Part shown: piece after piece, positions 3,942-24,965 of the stretch | Layout of the letters: the number at the start of each line of letters is the position of its first letter | How positions within the stretch are numbered: the stretch's first letter is position 1 | Source of the DNA: a virus | Length of the DNA stretch: 25,374 nt | Reading direction: 5' to 3' (one strand) | Virus record (IMG/VR): IMGVR_UViG_3300047408_000278 | Span: 1-25,374 of that record | Translations under genes and position numbers: made by a program | The notes under the pieces: generated by a model | Told to the model about the DNA's origin: nothing | Database searches by the model: none | The model's input: the letters and a program-made list of their open reading frames with translations, nothing else

Positions 3942-4331
3942 ATGGAAGAAAGCATTCTTAAGTCGACTAAGAAAATTCTGGGACTTGCTGACAATTACAC
4001 GCCGTTTGATCTGGATGTAATTACTCACATTAATGCCGCTTTCTCCATTCTTGATCAACTTGGCGTTGGCCCAGATGGCGGATTTATGATTGAAGATGAA
4101 ACGACTGTGTGGGGTGATTATGTCGCTCCACTCAATCAACTTCATCTGATCAAGACGTATATTTTTCTAAAAGTTCGACTTCTCTTCGACCCACCGACAA
4201 CCTCGTTTCTTATTGAGGCCACAAACAATCAGATCAAAGAATACGAATGGAGGCTTAATACCTTCCGGGAATGGGAACTCGATCCAACGGATCCGATGTT
4301 AGAAGAGGAGCCAGTACCATGGAGCCGGTAA
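3942..4331 (+). CDS. Head-tail connector (gp6-like adaptor)
   Basis: This 129-residue, mostly helical protein begins MEESILKSTKKILGLADNYT, followed by FDLDVITHINAAFSILDQLGVGP, then a region ending in an EYEWRLNTFRE helix. This is the pattern of the small head-tail adaptor family related to HK97 gp6, which forms a ring under the portal. TTAGGAGGTGAATT gives a strong ribosome site. The 3' end overlaps the next gene by 13 bases. Its place upstream of the terminase and portal, rather than downstream of the capsid gene, is a little unusual but occurs in Gram-positive phages. Confidence 0.65.
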   Translation: MEESILKSTKKILGLADNYTPFDLDVITHINAAFSILDQLGVGPDGGFMIEDETTVWGDYVAPLNQLHLIKTYIFLKVRLLFDPPTTSFLIEATNNQIKEYEWRLNTFREWELDPTDPMLEEEPVPWSR

Positions 4332-4744
4332 ATGAAAACGTAAAAGAATTTATCGAGCATCATGGTGTTCGAGGAATGAAGTGGGGGGTTCGTAGAGCTA
4401 GAACTCCCAGAACAACTAGTAGAGATTATAAGAAGACAGCACCATATCGAAAGAAGAAAGCTTCTGAGCTGACTAATAAACAACTGAAGACTGCTAATGA
4501 GCGAGCTAATCTAGAAAAGAATTTCAGAAGTTTGAATCCAGGAACAGTAGCAAAAGGATCGGCTTTTGTAAAAATGGCAATAGGAGCAGCAACAACAGCC
4601 GGTACTGTTTATGCTCTTACAAGTACTCCTCTTGGGAAAGCTACTATAAATGCTGGTAAGAAAGGTGCAAAAGCTATTCTTACTAAAAAAGCGGCGAGAG
4701 TTGCTGGTAAAGCGGTTACGACAGGACAACTTAAGCTATTTTGA
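4319..4744 (+). CDS. Tagged small basic protein 1 (HHGVRGMKWGVRR tag)
   Basis: This 141-residue protein has the N-terminal segment FIEHHGVRGMKWGVRRAR (residues 11-28). It is followed by a basic stretch, a conserved-looking KKASELTNKQLKTANERANLE helix, a weakly hydrophobic Ala/Gly/Thr segment (about residues 83-105) and a very basic C-terminus. The HxGx(K/R)GM(K/R)WGxR tag recurs on different small structural-region proteins of Gram-positive phages; its function is not established as far as I know. ATG at 4319 is preceded by GAAGAGGAG; a longer in-frame start at 4271 would extend into the connector gene. A second protein with the same tag lies at 6501-6854. Confidence 0.72.
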   Translation: MEPVNENVKEFIEHHGVRGMKWGVRRARTPRTTSRDYKKTAPYRKKKASELTNKQLKTANERANLEKNFRSLNPGTVAKGSAFVKMAIGAATTAGTVYALTSTPLGKATINAGKKGAKAILTKKAARVAGKAVTTGQLKLF

Positions 4745-4761: not shown

Positions 4762-6504
4762 TTGCTATCAAATACTGCAACTCCTCTCTATTATGGTCAA
4801 TTTCGTCAACAGGTTTTAGATGGAGAAATTCCTGTTAATAGAGAAATCTCTATGGAGATGAATCGTATTGATGATCTAATCGCTAATCCAAACATTTATT
4901 ACGATGATCTCGCTGTTAATGGCTTTATCAAGTATTGTGAATTCGAACTCACACTTACTGATGGTAGCGATCTTCACCTTCTTGATTCGTTCAAGCTATG
5001 GGCTGAACAGATTTTTGGTTGGTACTTCTTCGTAGAAAGAAGTGTTTACCAACCTAACCCTGTAGGCGGTGGAGGACAGTACATCAAGAAGAAGATCATG
5101 AAGCGCCTAACCACGAAGCAGTACCTCATTGTCGCAAGAGGAGCTGCCAAATCAATGTATGGTGCTTGTATCCAAGCGTACTTCCTAAACGTGGATACCG
5201 CAACCACACATCAGATCACAACGGCGCCCACAATGAAGCAGGCCGACGAAGTGATGTCACCGGTTCGTACGGCTATCACAAGAGCAAGAGGCCCACTGTT
5301 TAGATTTCTAACAGAGGGATCTCTACAAAACACAACAGGTTCTAGAGCTCAACGGGTCAAGCTAGCTTCTACAAAGAAGGGCGTTGAAAACTTTCTTACC
5401 GGATCTTTGCTCGAGATTCGTCCTATGACTATCAACAAACTTCAAGGCCTTCGACCAAAGGTTTCGACAATCGATGAGTGGTTGTCTGGTGACATTCGAG
5501 AAGACGTAGTTGGGGCAATTGAGCAAGGAGCCTCCAAGATGGAGGATTACTTGATCGTTGCTATCAGCTCTGAAGGTACTGTTCGAAATGGTTCTGGCGA
5601 TACCATCAAAATGGAACTTGCCAGCATACTTAGAGGTGAGTATCAAGCACCACACGTTTCTATTTGGCATTACAAACTGGACGAAATTGACGAAGTTGCT
5701 GATCCTAGCACATGGTTGAAAGCAAATCCCAATCTTGGCAAAACTGTTACGTACGATGTCTATCATTTGGATGTAGAAAGAGCTGAAAAAGCTCCTGCAT
5801 CTAGGAATGACATCCTTGCAAAGCGGTTTGGTATTCCAATGGAAGGATACACTTATTTCTTTACGTATGAAGAAACTCTACCTCATAGAGCACGGGAATT
5901 TTGGGGTTTGCCTTGCGCATTGGGAGCGGACTTGTCGCAAGGAGACGACTTCTGTGCTTTTACTCTCTTGTTTCCCTTTCAAAATTATTCGTTTGGAGTT
6001 AAAACTAGAAGTTACATTACCTCTTTGACATTGATGAAGCTTCCAGGTGCTATGAGGATGAAGTACGATGAATTCATTCGTGAAGGAAGTCTTCAAGTTC
6101 TGGAAGGAACAGTTCTTGGGATGATGGAGGTCTACGAAGACCTCGAGGAATTCATTCGCACAAATGAGTATGATGTTCGTTGCTTTGGATTTGACCCATA
6201 CAATGCTAGAGAATTTGTAACTAGATGGGAAGCTGAAAACGGCCCATTTGGAATCGAGAAAGTCATTCAAGGAGCAAGAACAGAATCAGTTCCTCTTGGT
6301 GAGCTGAAGATTTTGGCCGAAGAACGTAAGTTGATCTTTGATCAAGAGCTTATGTCATTTGCTATGGGTAATGCAGTTACTTTAGAAGATACTAATGGTA
6401 ACAGAAAGCTCATGAAGAAGCGAGTTGATGAAAAGATCGATAATGTCTCTGCCATGATGGATGCCTATGTTGCTTACAAAGCAAACAAGGAGGCGTTTGA
6501 GTGA
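4762..6504 (+). CDS. terL: Terminase large subunit
   Basis: This 580-residue protein is the packaging motor ATPase and nuclease. It shows a Walker A-like motif VARGAAKS (residues 124-131), a Walker B-like STIDEW (Asp238-Glu239), and an RNase H-type nuclease domain: Asp390 in GADLSQGDD, Asp478 in CFGFDPYNAREF, and the C-terminal KKRVDEKIDNVSAMMDAY metal-binding segment. It uses a TTG start at 4762 directly behind AAGGAGGAG; this fits the spacing and no better ATG lies nearby. The order terminase, tagged protein, portal, capsid is conserved for HK97-like phages. The stop overlaps the next GTG by 4 bases. Confidence 0.93.
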   Translation: MLSNTATPLYYGQFRQQVLDGEIPVNREISMEMNRIDDLIANPNIYYDDLAVNGFIKYCEFELTLTDGSDLHLLDSFKLWAEQIFGWYFFVERSVYQPNPVGGGGQYIKKKIMKRLTTKQYLIVARGAAKSMYGACIQAYFLNVDTATTHQITTAPTMKQADEVMSPVRTAITRARGPLFRFLTEGSLQNTTGSRAQRVKLASTKKGVENFLTGSLLEIRPMTINKLQGLRPKVSTIDEWLSGDIREDVVGAIEQGASKMEDYLIVAISSEGTVRNGSGDTIKMELASILRGEYQAPHVSIWHYKLDEIDEVADPSTWLKANPNLGKTVTYDVYHLDVERAEKAPASRNDILAKRFGIPMEGYTYFFTYEETLPHRAREFWGLPCALGADLSQGDDFCAFTLLFPFQNYSFGVKTRSYITSLTLMKLPGAMRMKYDEFIREGSLQVLEGTVLGMMEVYEDLEEFIRTNEYDVRCFGFDPYNAREFVTRWEAENGPFGIEKVIQGARTESVPLGELKILAEERKLIFDQELMSFAMGNAVTLEDTNGNRKLMKKRVDEKIDNVSAMMDAYVAYKANKEAFE

Positions 6505-6854
6505 TTGACGAAGAAGAGGATATTTACGCCTTCCTTGAACATCATGGTGTCAGAGGGATGCGATGGGGAGTTCGTCGAGCTAGATCATCTACTACTAAAG
6601 CACCGAAAAAACCTTTGACTCCACAAGAGAAAGCTGTAAGAAGAAATAAGATCATTGGTGGAGCATTGCTTGTGGCTGGTGGTGCTTTATTTGCCAAAAT
6701 GATTATAGATCAACATAGCACAATGAAGGCTCGTAGTGCAGCCAATATTTACAATGCTTCGAAAAAGGTGAAAGTTGCACAACAAATAAATGATGTAATA
6801 AGTATGAATACTGGAGTAAGAACCGTCACTTTAGCCAAAGCAATTGGGAGGTGA
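6501..6854 (+). CDS. Tagged small basic membrane-like protein 2 (HHGVRGMRWGVRR tag)
   Basis: This 117-residue protein starts with GTG in a GTGA overlap with the terminase stop, preceded by AAGGAGG. Residues 10-28 (AFLEHHGVRGMRWGVRRAR) repeat the tag seen at the N-terminus of the protein at 4319-4744. A basic linker and one confident hydrophobic segment (IIGGALLVAGGALFAKMII, about residues 50-69) follow, then a basic amphipathic tail. The rest is not alignable by eye to the other tagged protein, so the tag looks modular. Position between terminase and portal suggests a head- or DNA-delivery-associated role, which is inference. Confidence 0.7.
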   Translation: MIDEEEDIYAFLEHHGVRGMRWGVRRARSSTTKAPKKPLTPQEKAVRRNKIIGGALLVAGGALFAKMIIDQHSTMKARSAANIYNASKKVKVAQQINDVISMNTGVRTVTLAKAIGR

Positions 6855-8162: not shown

Positions 8163-9998
8163 ATGGAACCAGATTTCAGCGGTTACGCTACCAAAGCTGG
8201 ACTCCAGTGCTCTGACGGTCGAACTATCATGCCTGGCGCTTTCAAGCATCAGGACAAGATGAGAGTTCCTCTCGTTTGGCAGCATGGTCATTCCGACCCG
8301 GAGAATGTTTTGGGGCACGCCATTCTCGAGAATCGTGATGATGGAGTTTACGCTTACGGTTATTTCAATAAGTCCAGCAAGGCTTCTCATACAAAGGATC
8401 TTCTTGACCATGGTGACATTACCATGTTGTCTATTTGGGCGAATGAGCTTGTTGAACGAGCAGGTAAGGTTCTTCATGGAGCAATTCGTGAAGTTAGCCT
8501 TGTTTTGTCTGGTGCCAATCCAGGTGCTCTAATCGAGAATGTTACCATTCGGCACTCTGATGGTGAAGATACCATGCTTGAGGACGAAGTTATCATTTAC
8601 ACAGGCCTCGAGCTGGAACATGTTACTTCCGAAGAGAAGGAAGAGGAAGTAATCGAACATGCTACCGGTGATGGAGAAGAGACCATTCAAGATGTCTATG
8701 ATTCCATGACTGATAAGCAAAAGGAAGTGCTTCATTTTATGCTCGGGCAAGCTCTTGAAAGCAATGCCGGGGATTTGCAGCAAGATAATCTTGAAGACTC
8801 AACCAAAGACGATCAGGAAGGTAACAAAATGACCCGCAACGTCTTCGAGAAGGGTGATGATAAGGGAAAAGGAGCACCTGTTCTTTCCCACGCTGACATC
8901 CAGGGCATTGTTGCTGATGCGACAAAGACTGGATCGCTGAAAGCTTCAGTTGAGAATTACGCGCTTGCTCACGGCATCAATCAGATCGACACTCTTTTCC
9001 CCGAAGCTCAGGCTATGACTTCAGCTCCGGAGTTCTACACTCGTCGTACGGAATGGGTGAATTCTGTTCTCAATGGAGCACGTAAGAGCCCTTTTAGTCG
9101 AGTGAAGACTCACTGGGCAGATCTCACGTATGACGATGCTCGTGCAAAGGGTTATATTACGGGTGATGTGAAGACTGAGGAATATTACGGTACTGCTCGC
9201 CGTGAAACTAGCCCACAGACTATTTATAAAAAGCAGAAGCTTGATCGTGATGATATTCTCGATATTACTGACTTTGATGTCGTCGCCTGGATGAAGGGCG
9301 AGATGCGACTTATGCTGGACGAGGAAATCGCCCGAGCAATTCTCCTTGGTGATGGACGTACGGCAGGAGATCCTGACAAGATCTTGGAGGATCGTATTCG
9401 CCCGATCGCCAAGGACGATCCTATGTTTACAATTACAGTGTTGTGCGATCTTGCTGCTGGAACTATCTCTGACTTTGTGGACGCCATCATTCAGTATCGT
9501 CCGCTATATCGTGGAAGTGGACTTCCTACGTTGTACACCAGTGAGCATCTGATTGCCAAGACTATGCTTTTGAAGGATACTCTTGGTCGTAGAATTTACA
9601 CTTCGATGGACCAGCTTGCTGCAGAGATTCGTGTTGCCGCAATTATTCCGGTTGACATCTTTGACCCAGCAGCTGGAAATCCTCAGGCCGTTATTGTGAA
9701 CATGAACGATTATGTAATTGGTGCTGATAAGGGTGGAGAAGTCAGCATGTTCGACGACTTCGACATCGATTACAACCAACTCAAGTACCTCATTGAGACT
9801 CGTATCTCTGGTGCTTTGGTCAAGCTCAAGTCTGCGATCGTTGTCAAGCAGGGCACGTTTGTTCCTCCGCCTCCTGGCACTGGTCATATCATCGTTCCTG
9901 AGCCTCCGAATGAGCGTCAGAGCAGCCCGTCTGTTCACGGATCACTTCCTGACGATGACGGTACAGTGACAGCCAGAGCTTCTTCTGGAGAGAAGTAA
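8163..9998 (+). CDS. Fused capsid maturation protease - major capsid protein
   Basis: This 611-residue protein joins two normally separate head proteins. Residues 1-130 are an HK97-type (S78) prohead protease: LVWQHGHSDPENVLG holds the candidate catalytic His (41/43), and IREVSLVLSGANPGA holds the candidate Ser112. Residues 135-222 are acidic and helical, like a scaffold (delta) domain. Residues from about 223 onward are an HK97-fold major capsid protein, with WADLTYDDARAKGYI, RETSPQTIYKKQKLDRDDI and WMKGEMRLMLDEEIARAIL. The last ~45 residues are a Pro-rich, then acidic extension. ATG at 8163 follows GAAAGGAATA. Such fusions exist in other phages. An internal in-frame ATG at 8829 has its own strong ribosome site. 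Confidence 0.92.
   Translation: MEPDFSGYATKAGLQCSDGRTIMPGAFKHQDKMRVPLVWQHGHSDPENVLGHAILENRDDGVYAYGYFNKSSKASHTKDLLDHGDITMLSIWANELVERAGKVLHGAIREVSLVLSGANPGALIENVTIRHSDGEDTMLEDEVIIYTGLELEHVTSEEKEEEVIEHATGDGEETIQDVYDSMTDKQKEVLHFMLGQALESNAGDLQQDNLEDSTKDDQEGNKMTRNVFEKGDDKGKGAPVLSHADIQGIVADATKTGSLKASVENYALAHGINQIDTLFPEAQAMTSAPEFYTRRTEWVNSVLNGARKSPFSRVKTHWADLTYDDARAKGYITGDVKTEEYYGTARRETSPQTIYKKQKLDRDDILDITDFDVVAWMKGEMRLMLDEEIARAILLGDGRTAGDPDKILEDRIRPIAKDDPMFTITVLCDLAAGTISDFVDAIIQYRPLYRGSGLPTLYTSEHLIAKTMLLKDTLGRRIYTSMDQLAAEIRVAAIIPVDIFDPAAGNPQAVIVNMNDYVIGADKGGEVSMFDDFDIDYNQLKYLIETRISGALVKLKSAIVVKQGTFVPPPPGTGHIIVPEPPNERQSSPSVHGSLPDDDGTVTARASSGEK
8815..8831 (+). promoter_or_regulatory. Internal ribosome binding site and start for capsid protein alone
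   Basis: Inside the fusion gene, AGGAAGG (8815-8821) lies 7 bases before an in-frame ATG (8829) that begins MTRNVFEKGDD, exactly where the scaffold-like linker ends and the capsid domain begins. Starting here would give a 389-residue scaffold-free major capsid protein from the same mRNA. The site is visible in the sequence; its use is inferred. Confidence 0.55.
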
Positions 9999-19901: not shown

Positions 19902-20120
19902 ATGTGCATATTGCTCATTTGTGGGATCATAGTTCTTACCGCGATCTCGGCAAACGTTCTTTGGCTCAAGAGGAAAACTCATGTTGGTAGCATTGTCATT
20001 ACGGAGCAATCGTCCGGTAAGAAGATATTTTCCCTCGAGTTAGACAAGGCTCCCACCGAAATCGAGCAAATGAAGACCGTTACTTTCAAAGTAGTCTCAC
20101 AAGAAGAATTCGCAGATTAA
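19902..20120 (+). CDS. Small N-terminally anchored membrane protein
   Basis: This 72-residue protein starts MCILLICGIIVLTAISANVLW, one hydrophobic segment of about 20 residues, followed by KRKTHVGSIVITEQSSGKKI and a soluble beta-rich part with LDKAPTEIEQMKTVTFKVV. The 'VG.I.I.E...GK..FSLELD..P..I..MK.V.F.V' layout is one I associate with small phage proteins at the end of tail operons; function is unknown. AAGGATAAC precedes the ATG. The promoter-like element at 20109-20137 overlaps its stop codon. Confidence 0.65.
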   Translation: MCILLICGIIVLTAISANVLWLKRKTHVGSIVITEQSSGKKIFSLELDKAPTEIEQMKTVTFKVVSQEEFAD

Positions 20121-20137
20121 ACATTTACTATAATGGG
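20109..20137 (+). promoter_or_regulatory. Conserved promoter-like element, copy 1
   Basis: TTCGC (20109-20113), ACA (20121-20123) and TATAAT (20129-20134) then GGG are arranged exactly as in the other copies at 20698, 20822, 20898, 21851, 22121 and 24417. The TATAAT ends 22 bases before the start at 20157, so this copy probably drives that gene. There is no TTGACA-like hexamer 17 bases upstream of TATAAT. Confidence 0.8.
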
Positions 20138-20156
20138 ACTACAGAAAGGAATAATG

Positions 20157-20471: not shown

Positions 20472-20509
20472 CATAGGAGTTGTGTAAATTACACGGCTCC
20501 TATGTTTTT
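20472..20509 (+). terminator. Rho-independent terminator
   Basis: CATAGGAG (20472-20479) pairs with CTCCTATG (20497-20504). The helix continues through two T-G pairs and GTGT/ACAC to a 5-base AAATT loop, and is followed by TTTTT. It lies 27 bases after the stop of the 20157-20444 gene and closes that unit. Confidence 0.92.
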
Positions 20510-20697: not shown

Positions 20698-20726
20698 TTC
20701 GCAGGAAAAACAGTGTCTATAATGAG
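20698..20726 (+). promoter_or_regulatory. Conserved promoter-like element, copy 2
   Basis: TTCGC at 20698, ACA at 20710 and TATAAT at 20718, followed by GAG: spacing identical to the other copies. It precedes a 100-nt structured segment ending in a T-tract and no gene. Confidence 0.8.
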
Positions 20727-20823
20727 AAGAGACTAGGATTGGAGGACTAGTCTATGAACCGGACCCCGTGAGGATTCTTCGAGAATCCAAAATACGCAAG
20801 AACGACGGACCTTCTCATTTTTT
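20724..20823 (+). ncRNA. Candidate structured RNA, unit A
   Basis: Directly after TATAAT, GAGAAG (20724-20729) pairs with CTTCTC (20811-20816), which is followed by A and six T. With the last two promoter bases the match is 8 of 8. Inside are two perfect hairpins: AGACTAG/CTAGTCT (20730-20736 with 20747-20753), whose 10-base loop holds GGAGG, and GGATTCT/AGAATCC (20772-20778 with 20782-20788). There is no reading frame of note. It would give an RNA of about 100 nt if transcription starts at the G after TATAAT. I do not recognise an RNA family, and the arms do not fit a tRNA. Confidence 0.6.
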
Positions 20824-20850
20824 CGCAGAAAAAACAATTACTATAACGAG
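20822..20850 (+). promoter_or_regulatory. Conserved promoter-like element, copy 3
   Basis: TTCGC at 20822, ACA at 20834 and TATAAC at 20842 (one change from TATAAT), followed by GAG. It begins inside the T-tract of unit A, so the units are packed head to tail. Confidence 0.75.
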
Positions 20851-20897
20851 AGGGGAGGGTTAGCGACCAACTATACCTCCTCTCTCACCAGTTTTTT
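20848..20897 (+). ncRNA. Candidate structured RNA, unit B (single long hairpin)
   Basis: GAGAGGGGAGG (20848-20858) pairs with CCTCCTCTCTC (20876-20886) over 11 bases with one G-T pair, around a 17-base loop. It is followed by ACCAG and six T (20892-20897). This is essentially a promoter followed at once by a terminator-like hairpin, predicting an RNA of about 50 nt. No gene could fit. Confidence 0.58.
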
Positions 20898-20926
20898 CTC
20901 ACCGAAAAAACAAACACTATAATGAG
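20898..20926 (+). promoter_or_regulatory. Conserved promoter-like element, copy 4
   Basis: CTCAC stands at the TTCGC position (20898), ACA is at 20910 and TATAAT at 20918, followed by GAG. It has the weakest 5' block of the seven, but spacing, A-tract, ACA and TATAAT are kept. It starts within the T-tract of unit B. Confidence 0.72.
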
Positions 20927-20988
20927 GAGACGCGAATCCAGCGTGTGGCATTCAGCCAACTCAGAGAAATCTGAGCTTCTCATTTTTT
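20924..20988 (+). ncRNA. Candidate structured RNA, unit C (four-way junction)
   Basis: The segment folds on paper with almost no unpaired joints. The closing helix GAGGAG/CTTCTC (20924-20929 with 20976-20981) holds three arms: ACGC/GCGT (20930-20933 with 20941-20944), TGGC/GCCA (20946-20949 with 20955-20958) and CTCAGA/TCTGAG (20960-20965 with 20970-20975, GAAA tetraloop). Only single bases (G20945, A20959) separate the arms. A and six T follow (20983-20988). The next gene starts at 21016 with its own ribosome site, so the unit could also act as an attenuating leader. The cloverleaf outline recalls a tRNA, but arm sizes and sequence do not fit one. Confidence 0.65.
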
Positions 20989-21015
20989 ATTTTCCAATTC
21001 ATCACAGGAGAGATA

Positions 21016-21240
21016 ATGTCCACTATTCAAGAGCAGCGTGGAGGAATGGGAATCGGTACGTCCTTTGCTTGCGAGCTAGGCGTCGCCGTTCTCAGAGGTG
21101 CTCGAGCAATGGATGTCGCCCATACAGATCTTCTCGCAGCTGTCACTGCCGAGGAAGCAGCTGAAGCTGCCGAGCGCCTCGAGTTGATCATCCGCAATAC
21201 CATCATCGCGATTCGTCTGTACGACACAGCTAACATCTAA
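21016..21240 (+). CDS. Small helical protein of unknown function
   Basis: This 74-residue protein starts at an ATG behind ACAGGAGAG. The N-terminus (MSTIQEQRGGMGIGTSFACE) leads into an Ala/Glu-rich helical region: AVTAEEAAEAAERLELIIRN, ending IIAIRLYDTANI. There is no membrane segment or signal peptide. It follows RNA unit C by 27 bases, so it is either expressed by read-through of that unit or regulated by it. It is followed after 20 bases by the membrane protein gene at 21261, with AAAGGAG in between. I do not recognise the family. Confidence 0.68.
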   Translation: MSTIQEQRGGMGIGTSFACELGVAVLRGARAMDVAHTDLLAAVTAEEAAEAAERLELIIRNTIIAIRLYDTANI

Positions 21241-21260
21241 TCACTTAAAAGGAGATAATC

Positions 21261-21788
21261 ATGGAATACACACAATTGCCCCCGCCCGCTCCTATTGTCG
21301 AGAACTCTAAGCCTAAGAAAAGCCTTCCGGTCAAGATCGCTATCGGGATTGCTATTTTCTTTGGTATCAGCTGGGTTGCTAGTCTGATCACGAACATTAG
21401 CAACGCAACAGCTTCTCATTCAGCTCCAATCCCTGCAGCCACGTCACATTCGAATGTTAGCAATGAGAAGGCTGAGACTGTCGTTTGGGCGGTCACTGCT
21501 GGTCCTGCAATGCAGAAGATCGTCGACATCAGCACGGGCATCGATGAGAATTCCGATCCGTCGGTGATTCTGTCAGCTTGCCTCAAGCTCGGCGATGCAG
21601 GTCATGATCTGGCTGATGGTGCTCCTGCTACTGCCGCTGGTGATGAGGCTCGAGCAATTGAGTCGTCATTTTCCAAGGCAGCCACTGCTTGCAGTGATGG
21701 TGACTTTGAGACGGCATCTACATATCTGCATGATGCAGTTGGTCACATGAGCACTCTCACGGACGAGCTCTCGAAGATCGCTGGTTAA
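21261..21788 (+). CDS. Membrane-anchored extracytoplasmic protein
   Basis: This 175-residue protein has a Pro-rich cytoplasmic start (YTQLPPPAPIVENSKPKKS), one membrane segment (VKIAIGIAIFFGISWVASLI, about residues 24-43), a Ser/Ala/His-rich linker, and an outside helical domain of ~100 residues with two Cys: SACLKLGDAGHDLADGAPAT and AATACSDGDFETASTYLHDA. This layout is common for actinobacterial cell-surface lipoprotein-like or signalling proteins. In a phage it could alter the host envelope, for example by blocking superinfection, but that is a guess. AAAAGGAGATAATC precedes the ATG. A terminator follows the stop. Confidence 0.75.
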   Translation: MEYTQLPPPAPIVENSKPKKSLPVKIAIGIAIFFGISWVASLITNISNATASHSAPIPAATSHSNVSNEKAETVVWAVTAGPAMQKIVDISTGIDENSDPSVILSACLKLGDAGHDLADGAPATAAGDEARAIESSFSKAATACSDGDFETASTYLHDAVGHMSTLTDELSKIAG

Positions 21789-21803
21789 CATCAAAAATCG
21801 TAG

Positions 21804-21847
21804 TGAGAGGGGTGTGCTGACCACGCATCCCTCTCATTATATTTTTT
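21804..21847 (+). terminator. Rho-independent terminator
   Basis: TGAGAGGG (21804-21811) pairs with CCCTCTCA (21829-21836), extended inside by GTGTG/CACGC with one wobble. It is followed by a T-rich run ending in six T. It closes the 21016-21788 transcription unit just before promoter copy 5. Confidence 0.88.
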
Positions 21848-21850
21848 CGA

Positions 21851-21879
21851 TTCGCAGGAATTACAACGTATATAATGAG
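21851..21879 (+). promoter_or_regulatory. Conserved promoter-like element, copy 5
   Basis: TTCGC at 21851, ACA at 21863 and TATAAT at 21871, followed by GAG. It has no T-tract unit; it directly precedes the small gene at 21906, giving a leader of about 29 bases if transcription starts at the G after TATAAT. Confidence 0.8.
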
Positions 21880-21905
21880 AACCTAACTTTATGAAAGGAA
21901 GAATA

Positions 21906-22079
21906 ATGAAAGTGAGTGACAAAGGCATAATTGTGTGTCAAGAGACCGGGGAATTTCATTGGAGTTTGAAGCAGTGTGCTAAGCATTATGGCTTCAGTCC
22001 AAGAGCACTTGCCCGTCGTCTTAATGGACATGGCAGTCGTCGCAGTACTCACGGATTTTCATTCCGTAGAATGAAGTAA
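21906..22079 (+). CDS. NUMOD1-like small DNA-binding protein
   Basis: This 57-residue protein reads VSDKGIIVCQETGEFHWSLK, then QCAKHYGFSPRALARRLNGH, then HGFSFRRMK. The 'V.C.ETGE...S...AA...G.S...L.R.L.G......G..FR' layout matches the NUMOD1 / IENR1 helix-turn-helix module usually appended to homing nucleases; here it stands alone without a nuclease domain. A regulatory or DNA-targeting role is plausible. I chose the ATG at 21906, which lies 5 bases after AAAGGAAG; the in-frame ATG at 21891 would sit too close to the promoter. A terminator follows closely. Confidence 0.68.
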   Translation: MKVSDKGIIVCQETGEFHWSLKQCAKHYGFSPRALARRLNGHGSRRSTHGFSFRRMK

Positions 22080-22091
22080 AGTAATTGAAAG

Positions 22092-22118
22092 GGGGAGTCA
22101 GCAATGACTCTCCTTTTT
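22092..22118 (+). terminator. Rho-independent terminator
   Basis: GGGGAGTCA (22092-22100) pairs with TGACTCTCC (22105-22113), with one G-T pair, across a GCAA tetraloop. It is followed by TTTTT and more pyrimidines. It ends the single-gene unit 21906-22079; promoter copy 6 begins 3 bases further on. Confidence 0.9.
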
Positions 22119-22120
22119 CT

Positions 22121-22149
22121 TTCGCCAAAATAACAAGTACTATAATGGA
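22121..22149 (+). promoter_or_regulatory. Conserved promoter-like element, copy 6
   Basis: TTCGC at 22121, ACA at 22133 and TATAAT at 22141, followed by GGA. The spacing equals that of all other copies. It precedes structured unit D. Confidence 0.8.
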
Positions 22150-22250
22150 GAATTACCGAGCGGGTGTGGGAATCGATTGAAAACTCACATAACCGAATGG
22201 ATCTGGTGACAGAAGCCCTGACACACGGTGTCGGGCTTATTCTCTTTTTT
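22147..22250 (+). ncRNA. Candidate structured RNA, unit D
   Basis: GGAGAAT (22147-22153) pairs with ATTCTCT (22239-22245; one wobble) just before six T. Inside are a TGTGGG/CTCACA arm (22165-22170 with 22184-22189) and a strong AGCCC-bulge-GACAC/GTGTC-GGGCT hairpin (22214-22237). The first ~30 bases (GGAGAATTACCGAGCGG) look like the start of a serine tRNA, but there is no T-arm, no foldable anticodon stem and no CCA, so a working tRNA is rejected; a tRNA-derived origin is possible. The unit ends 27 bases before the gene at 22277 and may act as its leader. Confidence 0.55.
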
Positions 22251-22276
22251 CTTTTTTCTAACTAAAGGAGATAATT

Positions 22277-22708
22277 ATGGGTGAAAGAATTGATCGTTGG
22301 AAGAAATATGTTGCAGATAATGAAGTTAATAAAAAAGTAAAGAGTCATTTTGAAACACATAAAGAGCTATATCTTCGTGTTGCTGGTGGAGTCGCAATCG
22401 CAGGAATTACAGCTATTGTAATGAGAGATCGTCACGCCAATCTTCTTAAAGGATTGGATGGGCCCACAGGGGCTACCGTGCGTTCTCTTAACTTTTTTTC
22501 TAAAGGTGGAGATATTGTAACTACTGTTCATAATGGTGGAAGAGGACATCCCGGATTTAGAGTTCATAATTTCGAACACAATTTGGATTTTGATACGCAA
22601 GGAATAGCAGCAAGAACATTCAGCATCCCGGAAAATGTAATGTCAATGCATCTCAACAAGAAAATTCCTGATGCATATGGATTACATTTCGATCGAATCA
22701 TATCATAA
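22277..22708 (+). CDS. Membrane-associated protein of unknown function
   Basis: This 143-residue protein has a charged N-terminal helix (GERIDRWKKYVADNEVNKKV), one weak membrane segment (LRVAGGVAIAGITAIVM, about residues 33-49), then a soluble part with GPTGATVRSLNFFSKGGDIV and TVHNGGRGHPGFRVHNFEHN, rich in Asn, Gly and His. AAAGGAGATAATT precedes the ATG. It is the first gene of a run of small membrane-protein genes and follows RNA unit D. I do not recognise the family. Confidence 0.68.
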   Translation: MGERIDRWKKYVADNEVNKKVKSHFETHKELYLRVAGGVAIAGITAIVMRDRHANLLKGLDGPTGATVRSLNFFSKGGDIVTTVHNGGRGHPGFRVHNFEHNLDFDTQGIAARTFSIPENVMSMHLNKKIPDAYGLHFDRIIS

Positions 22709-22731
22709 CTTTTTAACTCAAGGAGGAAGTA

Positions 22732-22896
22732 ATGGATGAGAAGCGACTTCTCGATAAGACAATCAACGATCTCACCGTCAGGGACGGTATCAAGCTATAT
22801 TTCATCTTTTCGCTCGCCACAAGTGTGGCCTATATCATGACACATTCAAAGCCCAAATTCACGTACACCCCGAATCCTCAACCAAAGGTTAACTAA
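22732..22896 (+). CDS. Short membrane-anchored peptide (54 residues)
   Basis: This short frame has a strong ribosome site, AAGGAGGAAGTA, before the ATG. The protein reads MDEKRLLDKTINDLTVRDG, then IKLYFIFSLATSVAYIM (a likely membrane segment, residues 20-36) and a polar tail, THSKPKFTYTPNPQPKVN. Its stop overlaps the next ATG by one base (TAATG), which signals a shared operon. No family was recognised. Confidence 0.65.
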   Translation: MDEKRLLDKTINDLTVRDGIKLYFIFSLATSVAYIMTHSKPKFTYTPNPQPKVN

Positions 22897-23033
22897 TGGC
22901 TACGTACAACGTATATACTAATCCGCCCAAATCCTATGGATGCATGAGCTTTCTGTTTGATATTTTGATGGTATGTCTTACTGGAGGGCTTTGGCTCATT
23001 TGGATATTTGTAAGGGAGATGCGTAAAAGGTGA
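22896..23033 (+). CDS. Short hydrophobic membrane peptide (45 residues)
   Basis: This 45-residue frame starts at the TAATG overlap and reads MATYNVYTNPPKSYGCM, then a hydrophobic stretch SFLFDILMVCLTGGLWLIWI (residues 18-37) and a basic end, FVREMRKR. That is a single membrane helix with the positive end inside. It ends in a GTGA overlap with the next gene, so it is translationally coupled on both sides. The layout resembles short phage membrane peptides but no named family is clear. Confidence 0.65.
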   Translation: MATYNVYTNPPKSYGCMSFLFDILMVCLTGGLWLIWIFVREMRKR

Positions 23034-23782
23034 TAAATCTGACTCACATGTCAGGAGCATTCGGAAAAGGTATCAAAGGAAATTCCCCGATAATTCTTTC
23101 TGTCGCTGCTGGAGTTGGAGTCATCACAACTGCATATTTGACAGGAATAGCTTCATATCAAGCGGCGAAACTAATCAAAGCCAAGGAAGATGTGGACGGA
23201 ACACCCACTGACCGAAAGCAACGACTAATAGAACGGACGAAACTTGTCTGGAAGCTTTATATTCCCGCCGGACTTTCCACCGTCTCAACCATCGGATGCA
23301 TTGCCGGAGCGAACAGAGTCAGTTACAAAAGGACAATGGCCGCTACGACTGCACTCGCTTTCACTGAACGAGCGTACACTGAATATCGAGATAAGGTTAT
23401 CGAGGAATACGGTGCGCGTAAAGATCAGGCCATTCGAGATAAAGTTATCTCTGATCAAGTAAAGGAGAGTGCGCCTTCTCACGAGGTGCTGGTAACTGGT
23501 CCTGGTGATATTTTGTGCTGCGAGTTGTTCACCATGCGATATTTCAAAAGTGACATGGAGACATTGCGTAGATCTGTGAACAACATCAACGCCAAGATGA
23601 TGACACATGATTATCAAACGCTGAACGACTTCTATTACATGGTCAAGTTACCGTATACGTCCGAATCAGGTCGAATAGGATGGGAATCTTCAAAGCTAAT
23701 GGATTTGATATTCTCTACGACGTTAACTGAAGATGGACGTCCTTGTATAACGTTCGAATACAACTACACAAAGATATTATAG
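23030..23782 (+). CDS. DUF6353-type phage membrane protein
   Basis: This 250-residue protein has two membrane segments, IILSVAAGVGVITTAYLTGI (about residues 21-40) and LYIPAGLSTVSTIGCIAGAN (about 76-95), a long helix with ALAFTERAYTEYRDKVIEEY, and a conserved soluble end: CCELFTMRYFKSDMETLRRS, LNDFYYMVKLPYTSESGRIGW-like residues and LTEDGRPCITFEYNY. This is the pattern I know as DUF6353, found in phages of Gram-positive bacteria with no known function. The GTG at 23030 overlaps the previous gene by 4 bases; the ATG at 23048 is an alternative. The membrane topology puts a large C-terminal domain on one side. Confidence 0.78.
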   Translation: MINLTHMSGAFGKGIKGNSPIILSVAAGVGVITTAYLTGIASYQAAKLIKAKEDVDGTPTDRKQRLIERTKLVWKLYIPAGLSTVSTIGCIAGANRVSYKRTMAATTALAFTERAYTEYRDKVIEEYGARKDQAIRDKVISDQVKESAPSHEVLVTGPGDILCCELFTMRYFKSDMETLRRSVNNINAKMMTHDYQTLNDFYYMVKLPYTSESGRIGWESSKLMDLIFSTTLTEDGRPCITFEYNYTKIL

Positions 23783-23858
23783 GAGGTGATGCGAAGGACA
23801 AACAACGTCCTGTACGGCGGCCTAGACCTTTGCCGCACGACGAATCGGAGAAGAAAGA
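23781..23858 (+). other. Leader with orphan perfect Shine-Dalgarno sequence
   Basis: AGGAGGTGAT (23781-23790) is a perfect match to the 16S rRNA 3' end but has no start codon at a usable distance: ATG 23789 is only 2 bases away and opens a 51-codon frame of unconvincing composition. Two short hairpins follow (AGGAC/GTCCT and GCGGC/GCCGC). The next real gene starts at 23859 with its own site. Confidence 0.4.
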
Positions 23859-24416
23859 GTGCAGAAAGCACTGTGCTTAGCCTTGGCAGTGGGTGTCGCT
23901 GCCTTTGTCCCTACTCCAGTATCAGCTCAGAGCATTACTTCTGACCCAACTACTACGGATATTCCGAACGTCACTGTTGCAGTTACAATCCCTACTACGA
24001 CTACCATTCCGCCAACCACAACTACCACCATGGCGCCGACAACTACAGTGCCAGCAGTCGATCCAGCGGTGGTCAACTACGTGTTACGAACCACTCCACC
24101 AAAGGAATTGATTGAGTATTACTGGCGAGATACACCAGATGTGAGCACAATGCTCAGAATTGCTGGTCATGAATCAGGCCTCGGAAAGAGAAAACGTGAC
24201 GGTACCATTGTCACATTCGAGGCTTGTGCAGCAGATAATCCCGGTTCATCAGCAGCCGGGCTTTTCCAGACGATGGGATTTCACAAAGCTCTAGCAGAAA
24301 GCATGGGTCTTTCGTGGGCCAACATAGCAGGTCCCGATTGTCTGGATGACGTTCTTTTAGCAAAGCAATTATACAATCATGGCAAGGGTTTGGGGAATTG
24401 GAAGGGGGCTTACTAG
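23859..24416 (+). CDS. Secreted lysozyme-like / transglycosylase-like enzyme
   Basis: This 185-residue protein starts with GTG behind CGGAGAAGAAAG. Residues 1-23 are a signal peptide (MQKALCLALAVGVAAFVPTP, then VSA before QS, a good signal peptidase I site). Residues 26-68 are a Thr/Pro-rich linker. Residues ~95-185 look like a lysozyme-superfamily domain: MLRIAGHESGLGKRKRDG, with Glu105 as the likely catalytic acid, NPGSSAAGLFQTMGFHKAL in the typical 'S..GLFQ' place, and Cys123/Cys161 that could form a disulfide. It would cut peptidoglycan from outside the membrane. It could serve lysis without a holin, host-wall remodelling, or exclusion. The domain seems short and may lack the last helices. 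Confidence 0.75.
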   Translation: MQKALCLALAVGVAAFVPTPVSAQSITSDPTTTDIPNVTVAVTIPTTTTIPPTTTTTMAPTTTVPAVDPAVVNYVLRTTPPKELIEYYWRDTPDVSTMLRIAGHESGLGKRKRDGTIVTFEACAADNPGSSAAGLFQTMGFHKALAESMGLSWANIAGPDCLDDVLLAKQLYNHGKGLGNWKGAY

Positions 24417-24445
24417 TTCGCCATTAAAACAATCATTGTAATGGA
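24417..24445 (+). promoter_or_regulatory. Conserved promoter-like element, copy 7
   Basis: TTCGC at 24417, ACA at 24429 and TGTAAT at 24437 (one change), followed by GGA. The spacing is again identical. It lies right after the stop of the secreted enzyme gene and precedes structured unit E. Confidence 0.78.
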
Positions 24446-24514
24446 GGAGAGTGAGCTCGAGTTTTATTGACTCGATGAAAGGTGGAATCCCAAGAACTCT
24501 CCTCCATTTTTTTT
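24443..24514 (+). ncRNA. Candidate structured RNA, unit E
   Basis: GGAGGAGAGT (24443-24452) pairs perfectly with ACTCTCCTCC (24496-24505); with the last two promoter bases the match is 12 of 12. It is followed by A and eight T (24507-24514). An inner arm TCGAGT/ACTCGA (24457-24462 with 24470-24475) has a 7-base loop. The outer helix has the strongest terminator-like character of the five units. The gene at 24531 begins 16 bases after the T-tract. Confidence 0.65.
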
Positions 24515-24530: not shown

Positions 24531-24965
24531 ATGCTAGTCCGTGAAATCAAATACGATAATTTTGACGGTGAAGAAGAAACAGGTAAGTATTATTTTCATA
24601 TGACTCGTACAGAATGGATCGAGTTGAACGCAGAATATGAAGGTGGTTTGGATGGCGCCTTCAAGAGACTTTCTGAGACAAAAGATCTCAAGGGAATCAT
24701 TACTCTATTGAGAACAATCATTCTCAAATCATACGGCATTAAATCAGATGATGGCAAACGATTCATCAAGAATGACAAAGTTCGTGAGGATTTCACTCAG
24801 GAACCAGCGTATGACGTTTTGTTCATGGATCTAGCCACAAACGAGGATGCAGGTCTTAATTTCATTAGAGGACTTATGCCAAAAGACTTGTTGCCAGAAC
24901 TGGACAAGGAAATAGCTAAGGCTAAAACAGCTGCAGCACTCAGTGTCGTGGAACCCAAGGAGTAA
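24531..24965 (+). CDS. Conserved phage protein, tail-assembly-chaperone-like
   Basis: This 144-residue protein reads MLVREIKYDNFDGEEETGKY, YFHMTRTEWIELNAEYEGGL, IITLLRTIILKSYGIKSDDG, KRFIKNDKVREDFTQEPAYD and VLFMDLATNEDAGLNFIRGL. This set of blocks (beta start, 'T..E...L......G', 'I..L..IILKSYG.KS.DG.RF.K', 'F.QT.AY...FM.LATD...A..F..G..P') is one I associate with small proteins of Gram-positive siphoviruses, often labelled tail assembly chaperone; the assignment is not firm. It is unusual to find it outside the tail module, behind its own promoter element. AGAAAGGAACC precedes the ATG. Confidence 0.62.
   Translation: MLVREIKYDNFDGEEETGKYYFHMTRTEWIELNAEYEGGLDGAFKRLSETKDLKGIITLLRTIILKSYGIKSDDGKRFIKNDKVREDFTQEPAYDVLFMDLATNEDAGLNFIRGLMPKDLLPELDKEIAKAKTAAALSVVEPKE

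Follow-up and report, generated by a model that had tools for sequence, protein, structure and literature searches.

Five structured RNA units behind a phage-type promoter motif in a viral DNA fragment are candidate small-RNA genes

Five short structured units lie on the plus strand of a 25,374-base virus record from IMG/VR (IMGVR_UViG_3300047408_000278, positions 1 to 25,374; this whole stretch is called the window), each directly downstream of a copy of one promoter motif. On balance, we regard these units as likely to be small non-coding RNA genes of ~50–105 nucleotides (nt) that are self-terminating, carry a phage-type promoter and are most likely read by a phage polymerase. Comparison with other phages also inclines us, somewhat less firmly, towards a broader proposal: that the motif represents a class of promoters, so far undescribed, for single-chain two-barrel phage RNA polymerases, with variants in phages of both Actinomycetota and Lactococcus. 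Such promoters would start transcription at the base after TATAAT and serve both genes and arrays of self-terminating small RNAs whose 5' end forms the terminator stem. The cassettes would hold transfer RNAs (tRNAs), RNAs of one or more new covarying families and many RNAs specific to a given phage.

Each unit folds back on its first base

The five units were read base by base for coordinates and helices. In every unit the first base is the one that follows TATAAT (or TATAAC and TGTAAT in units 2 and 5, respectively), and the 3' end pairs back to this base just ahead of a run of T. Unit 1 (20724–20823) encloses interior hairpins within the helix GAGAAG (20724–20729)/CTTCTC (20811–20816), which is followed by A and six T and reaches 9 base pairs (bp) when AAT/ATT is counted. 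Unit 2 (20848–20897) is an 11-bp hairpin, GAGAGGGGAGG (20848–20858)/CCTCCTCTCTC (20876–20886), with one G-U pair; its six T do not abut the 3' arm, from which they are separated by the 5 nt ACCAG. Unit 3 (20924–20988) is a four-helix RNA in which GAGGAG (20924–20929)/CTTCTC (20976–20981), again with one G-U and followed by A and six T, closes around three hairpins. The branched unit 4 (22147–22250, ~100 nt) has the weakest closing helix, GGAGAAT (22147–22153)/ATTCTCT (22239–22245), with two G-C pairs only and an outer G-U, its 3' arm ending within a run of six T. Unit 5 (24443–24514) is closed by GGAGGAGAGT (24443–24452)/ACTCTCCTCC (24496–24505), 13 bp counting AAT/ATT, and continues with A and eight T. 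A stable stem followed by a U-run, the form of an intrinsic terminator, is therefore found with a gap of 0–1 nt in units 1, 3, 4 and 5, and of 5 nt in unit 2.

These helices had been proposed in a first-pass annotation, and all five are present where it placed them. Its description was exact in part: the start directly after TATAAT holds for units 1, 3 and 4, the T-run following the 3' arm for all units except unit 2, and the pairing for all five, with a G-U in units 2, 3 and 4. Its statement that the units lack coding content is supported.

Folding energies of units 2–5 were clearly better than those of shuffled sequences (z = -5.7, -3.4, -3.2 and -4.1, respectively), while unit 1 (z = -1.1) was not clearly distinguished from its shuffles. 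Under a strict test for terminator-type helices, four of the seven intergenic motif copies passed, compared to 0.44% of all plus-strand positions; unit 4 failed because of its G-C content. The closing helices at motif copies are more than chance.

Homologues in other phages show covariation

The first-pass annotation had called the closing helix covarying. Among five unrelated RNAs of one genome, such differences are only suggestive; true covariation came from homologues in other phages. A homologue of unit 3 lies at 8374–8433 of contig L017, with 85% identity over 55 nt. Hairpin pairs change jointly between the two (C-G to A-T, T-A to C-G), and the closing helix still pairs in L017. The gene that follows the L017 homologue is, by eye, a homologue of the window open reading frame (ORF) 22277–22708, whereas unit 3 of the window precedes the ORF 21016–21240. 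Scanning viral contigs with the unit 3 core returned 43 stretches, one of which (L239) came from the L017 contig; the others were set aside as unrelated by source.

Cassettes of this type in Gordonia, Rhodococcus and environmental phages also hold a sister RNA family, ~106 nt long. A covariance-model search, of the kind that the annotation had suggested, found it at 15 loci, none in the window. Its members include L144:31537–31642, L146:41327–41450 and loci in L061, L089, L011, L012, L014, L137 and L214–L219. Both sides had changed in 14 of 18 pairs, and 98.8% of cells were paired compared to 25–37% in slid controls, in an alignment fitted to the model structure, which inflates pairing somewhat. 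None of 500 shuffles reached the covariation score. By eye, the closing helix changes in step, as in GAGAGG/CCTCTC, GAGAAG/CTTCTC and GAGACCCGG/CCGGGATTCTC. The family had no Rfam match at E up to 1, and it is intergenic and without annotation in the GenBank records examined. The query matched 53 GenBank records in whole or in part, in many cases over the promoter stretch only. Most of these RNAs precede another promoter. Together, the compensatory changes in unit 3 and the covariation of the sister family bear out selection on the closing helices, and this comparative evidence from other phages supports the annotation's suggestion that the units may be small RNAs made by the phage.

In all, 44 cassettes with closing helices were listed, the weak ones of which may be chance. 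The same kind of cassette holds tRNA-like genes in ReqiPepy6 (41206–41280), ReqiPoco6 and L120. Further observations concern individual loci. A possible GGG/CCC pseudoknot was seen by eye in the sister family. In Gordonia phage Fazel (L217:2940–3010), an apparent tRNA-like sequence, not called by ARAGORN, adjoins the sister-family RNA upstream with no promoter between. Two further structured RNAs, one in a Gordonia phage (L027:10143–10280) and one in ReqiPepy6 (L146:48455–48550), are homologous (83% over 81 nt) and are preceded by the same promoter.

The units share a phage-type promoter motif

The promoter is a 27-bp motif, T-rich at its start and then TTCGCA-N6-ACA-N5-TATAATGAGA, that recurs on one strand in many actinophages. 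Searching the window with TTCGC-N7-ACA-N5-TRTAAYG gave seven plus-strand matches, one of them mismatched and inside a gene, and the reversed control gave none. The unit 1 promoter, TTCGCAGGAAAAACAGTGTCTATAAT (20698–20723), matches the motif exactly. That of unit 2 (20822–20847) ends in TATAAC, and the T-run of unit 1 runs into its TTCGC. Unit 3 has the variant CTCACCGAAAAAACAAACACTATAAT (20898–20923), with CTCACC where TTCGC is expected. The promoters of unit 4 (22121–22146) and unit 5 (24417–24442, with TGTAAT) match the motif. The same promoter stands, without a hairpin, ahead of two ordinary genes, at 20109–20134 (gene start at 20154) and at 21851–21876 (ORF from 21891 or 21906).

Across viral contigs the forward motif was found in at least 120 stretches, often in 2–4 copies each, compared to 64 stretches, always with one copy, for the motif read backwards. 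A logo of 435 relaxed sites showed a T-rich segment from -39 to -26, TTCGCA, an A/T-rich stretch, ACA and TATAAT, followed by G (91%), A, G/A and A; since the sites were chosen on TTCGC, ACA and TATAAT plus G or A, only the remaining positions are independent evidence. At 331 of the 435 sites a Shine-Dalgarno (SD) sequence and a start codon follow within 60 nt. The motif is therefore mainly a gene-by-gene promoter, and small-RNA cassettes are a minority use of it. In the literature, mostly non-subscription papers, we found no earlier description of the motif, or of promoters or small RNAs of these actinophages.

A copy with one mismatch at 22397–22423 lies within the coding sequence of the ORF 22277–22708; the corresponding site in its L017 homologue (8519) matches the motif exactly. 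An internal promoter is one possibility and a shared coding constraint another.

Helix register points to a start next to TATAAT

Taking the base after TATAAT as position 0, we located helices of at least 9 bp that abut a T-run at 28 of the 435 sites, compared to 4.65 when downstream parts were swapped. Their outermost base lay at -3 (9 sites), at 0 (10 sites) or elsewhere between -6 and +2, and at 5 or beyond in two sites only; helix starts are concentrated between -3 and +2, and a position 7 nt downstream is not enriched among the 435 sites. Starts at -3 are found where the first T of the run is paired with AAT. The 8 nt past the 3' arm are T-rich, with at least five T in 27 of 41 cases compared to about 2/7 in controls. 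If these helices are terminators, their 5' arm must be transcribed. In addition, SD sequences start within 7 nt of TATAAT in 14 genes, for instance as AGGAGG directly after it. Helix register and SD positions indicate a probable transcription start at the base following TATAAT or just upstream of it.

A start next to TATAAT does not fit sigma-70 spacing. The sequences conserved upstream are TTCGCA, at a distance of 14 nt from TATAAT, and ACA; no TTGACA occurs ~17 nt upstream of the -10 in these promoters, and a scan with the sigma-70 consensus gave no excess over shuffles.

The motif travels with a putative two-barrel RNA polymerase

Relatives encode a conserved protein of ~900 residues, close to the right genome end in annotated phages, which matches phrog_4291 at E=0. 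The label of phrog_4291 is RNA-dependent RNA polymerase. The core LSGADFDGD is invariant and contains the DxDxD active-site signature (DFDGD), and helix-turn-helix matches were seen at both ends of the protein. An AlphaFold model of one member (L052; predicted local distance difference test score 79) had QDE-1, RDR2 and P74-26 gp62 as best matches in the PDB, with Foldseek E values of 1e-8 to 1e-6 (QDE-1, 1e-8) and modest TM-scores near 0.3; against the phi14:2 virion polymerase, E was 0.011. By its modelled fold and DxDxD core, the protein is a putative single-chain two-barrel RNA polymerase.

Among 49 motif records, 36 had phrog_4291, including 21 of 21 longer than 50 kilobases (kb) and 12 of 14 of 40–50 kb, as raw record counts with kinship not accounted for. 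Polymerase and motif were always on the same strand in these records. None of 30 reversed-motif records had phrog_4291; conversely, 26 of 30 polymerase-bearing records had the motif with at most one mismatch. Motif and polymerase are strongly associated, as would be expected of a promoter of a two-barrel polymerase. Judging from relatives, the phage of the window very likely carries the polymerase outside the fragment.

The polymerase has a homologue in Lactococcus phage 1706, gp75, which the ReqiPepy6 annotation names. Phage 1706 has 11 sites of a variant motif (TTTTACA-N5-TATAGTA), all on one strand, and controls gave none. Two of these sites start structured units whose first base is paired with a 3' arm ahead of a T-run. 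The ReqiPepy6 record describes 1706 gp75 as structural, so the enzyme may be carried within virions. The two phage 1706 cassettes, with variant promoter and closing helices, lie at L343:21070–21200 and 25730–25810, and the first contains a tRNA-like sequence that was not called by ARAGORN.

Two window ORFs (4271–4744 and 6501–6854) carry a tag of the EHHGVRGMKWGVRR type, which resembles HYGILRxSGRYPWGSG, the N-terminal tag of the polymerase in relatives. This is possibly a shared virion-packaging or ejection tag.

Genomic surroundings of the units

A DNA search for the nearest relative of the window gave no match. Its terminase is nearest to those of Streptomyces and Gordonia phages (81–83%), and its tail protein is a member of the ReqiPepy6 Gp37 family. 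ARAGORN and Rfam (RF00005) found no tRNA in the window. At the gathering score no Rfam family matched, and a loose threshold gave only microRNA-like chance matches on perfect hairpins and two other weak matches.

Upstream of the cassette block, an ordinary intrinsic terminator seen in the sequence (20472–20509, plus strand) ends the preceding gene. All three ORFs that lie immediately 3' of a unit are on the plus strand: the small ORF 21016–21240 after unit 3, with the SD AGGAG and without a promoter of its own; 22277–22708 after unit 4, the L017 homologue of which sits after the unit 3 homologue instead; and a tail assembly chaperone-like ORF (24531–24965, PF23803) after unit 5. A DUF6353 protein is encoded at 23030–23782; it occurs in 237 phage records, many of which share this genome layout.

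Discussion

We propose that the phage polymerase would begin at the base after TATAAT and copy the folded RNA, then stop or slow at the T-run owing to pairing of the 3' arm with the 5' end of the same transcript. A single helix would thus be both the terminator stem and a clamp on both RNA ends, like the acceptor stem in tRNA-bearing cassettes. Read-through would transcribe the next gene where one is present, and the RNAs would most likely act in trans.

Several observations weigh against this proposal. Terminator-type helices occur at a minority of motif sites (28–47 of 435, depending on the helix cut-off), and no homologue of units 1, 2, 4 or 5 was detected. The polymerase match is missing in 13 of the 49 motif records, two of them longer than 40 kb, which may be fragments; the counts themselves are raw, as said above. 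The polymerase gene is not within the window, a 25-kb fragment that stops short of it. Finally, a gene start with an SD sequence lies ~20–35 nt downstream of units 3, 4 and 5, with no second promoter between.

Because units 3–5 lead into genes, the main rival is that the units are attenuators or riboswitch-like leaders, in which the structured RNA and T-run end most transcripts and a signal permits entry into the next gene. The first-pass annotation had offered attenuators as an alternative, and many relatives show the same arrangement. A new promoter comes next after units 1 and 2, as after most sister-family RNAs, and no alternative antiterminator pairing was identified, albeit without a systematic search. 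Since the unit 3 RNA and the sister family precede different genes or another promoter, attenuation is weaker than the small-RNA reading, and we consider it unlikely, although three of the five units do precede a gene without another obvious promoter.

The helices could instead be hairpins that stabilize the 5' end of a messenger RNA, shielding it from 5' decay through its first base, with the T-run incidental. In L072, L075 and L115 there is indeed just a first-base hairpin of 25–33 nt, followed by an SD sequence and a gene. The strong T-richness after the 3' arm argues against this, as do unit 3 and the sister family, which are conserved, branched and independent of a particular gene; we regard it as improbable.

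TATAAT is also a perfect -10 hexamer, and purine-rich discriminators are usual, so that host sigma-70 promoters starting ~7 nt downstream might be nested in terminators; the helix would form just in RNA read through from upstream and would stop that transcription. Tandem units would then be redundant. The helices begin right at the edge of TATAAT instead of 7 nt downstream, some SD sequences adjoin TATAAT, TTGACA is missing, and the motif tracks the phage polymerase and recurs as a variant in a Lactococcus phage. We find this reading very improbable; from the register and the company that the motif keeps, the promoter is probably not a host sigma-70 promoter.

That the units are decayed tRNA genes, retained as remnants at the place where these phages carry tRNAs, is barely credible: tRNA-like genes do occupy such cassettes in relatives and the start of unit 4 resembles tRNA-Ser by eye, but no tRNA was found in the window, and relics would not show the conservation and covariation seen in unit 3 and the sister family.

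Among the closest known systems are the single-chain two-barrel phage RNA polymerases, SPbeta YonO (PMC5467207), P23-45 gp64 and gp96 (PMC10770324) and gp66 of the crAss-like phage phi14:2. Like these, the relatives' enzyme has a DxDxD core, and its model matches the fold of QDE-1 and P74-26 gp62. In the P23-45 group, phages without the virion polymerase also lack its promoter motif (PMC10770324), an association of the same kind as that between the actinophage motif and phrog_4291. The actinophage motif is not reported in the papers found, and the activity of the actinophage enzyme is putative. The YonO authors left the recognized promoter sequence still to be determined (PMC5467207). For the question of how promoters are recognized, in the absence of sigma factors, by single-chain enzymes related to cellular RNA polymerase, the motif supplies a concrete candidate sequence, available in isolated, sequenced phages of Gordonia, Rhodococcus, Streptomyces, Arthrobacter and Lactococcus. 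The motif further suggests that these phages have many small RNAs absent from their annotation, among them a strongly covarying family in Gordonia, Rhodococcus and environmental phages.

Promoters of T7-type single-subunit polymerases are long motifs used gene by gene, with a TATA element directly at the start and a purine-rich start. The phage motif has the same layout and differs in sequence, and T7 polymerase has an unrelated fold. In ReqiPepy6, the tRNA-OTHER gene at 41206–41278 has the same promoter, a closing helix within 2 nt of TATAAT that is continuous with the acceptor stem, and a T-rich end; unlike it, the five window units are not recognized as tRNAs. Bacterial small RNAs with intrinsic terminators are likewise short non-coding transcripts that end in a helix and a U-run, whereas in the window units the 5' terminus itself forms the terminator stem, behind a phage-type promoter.

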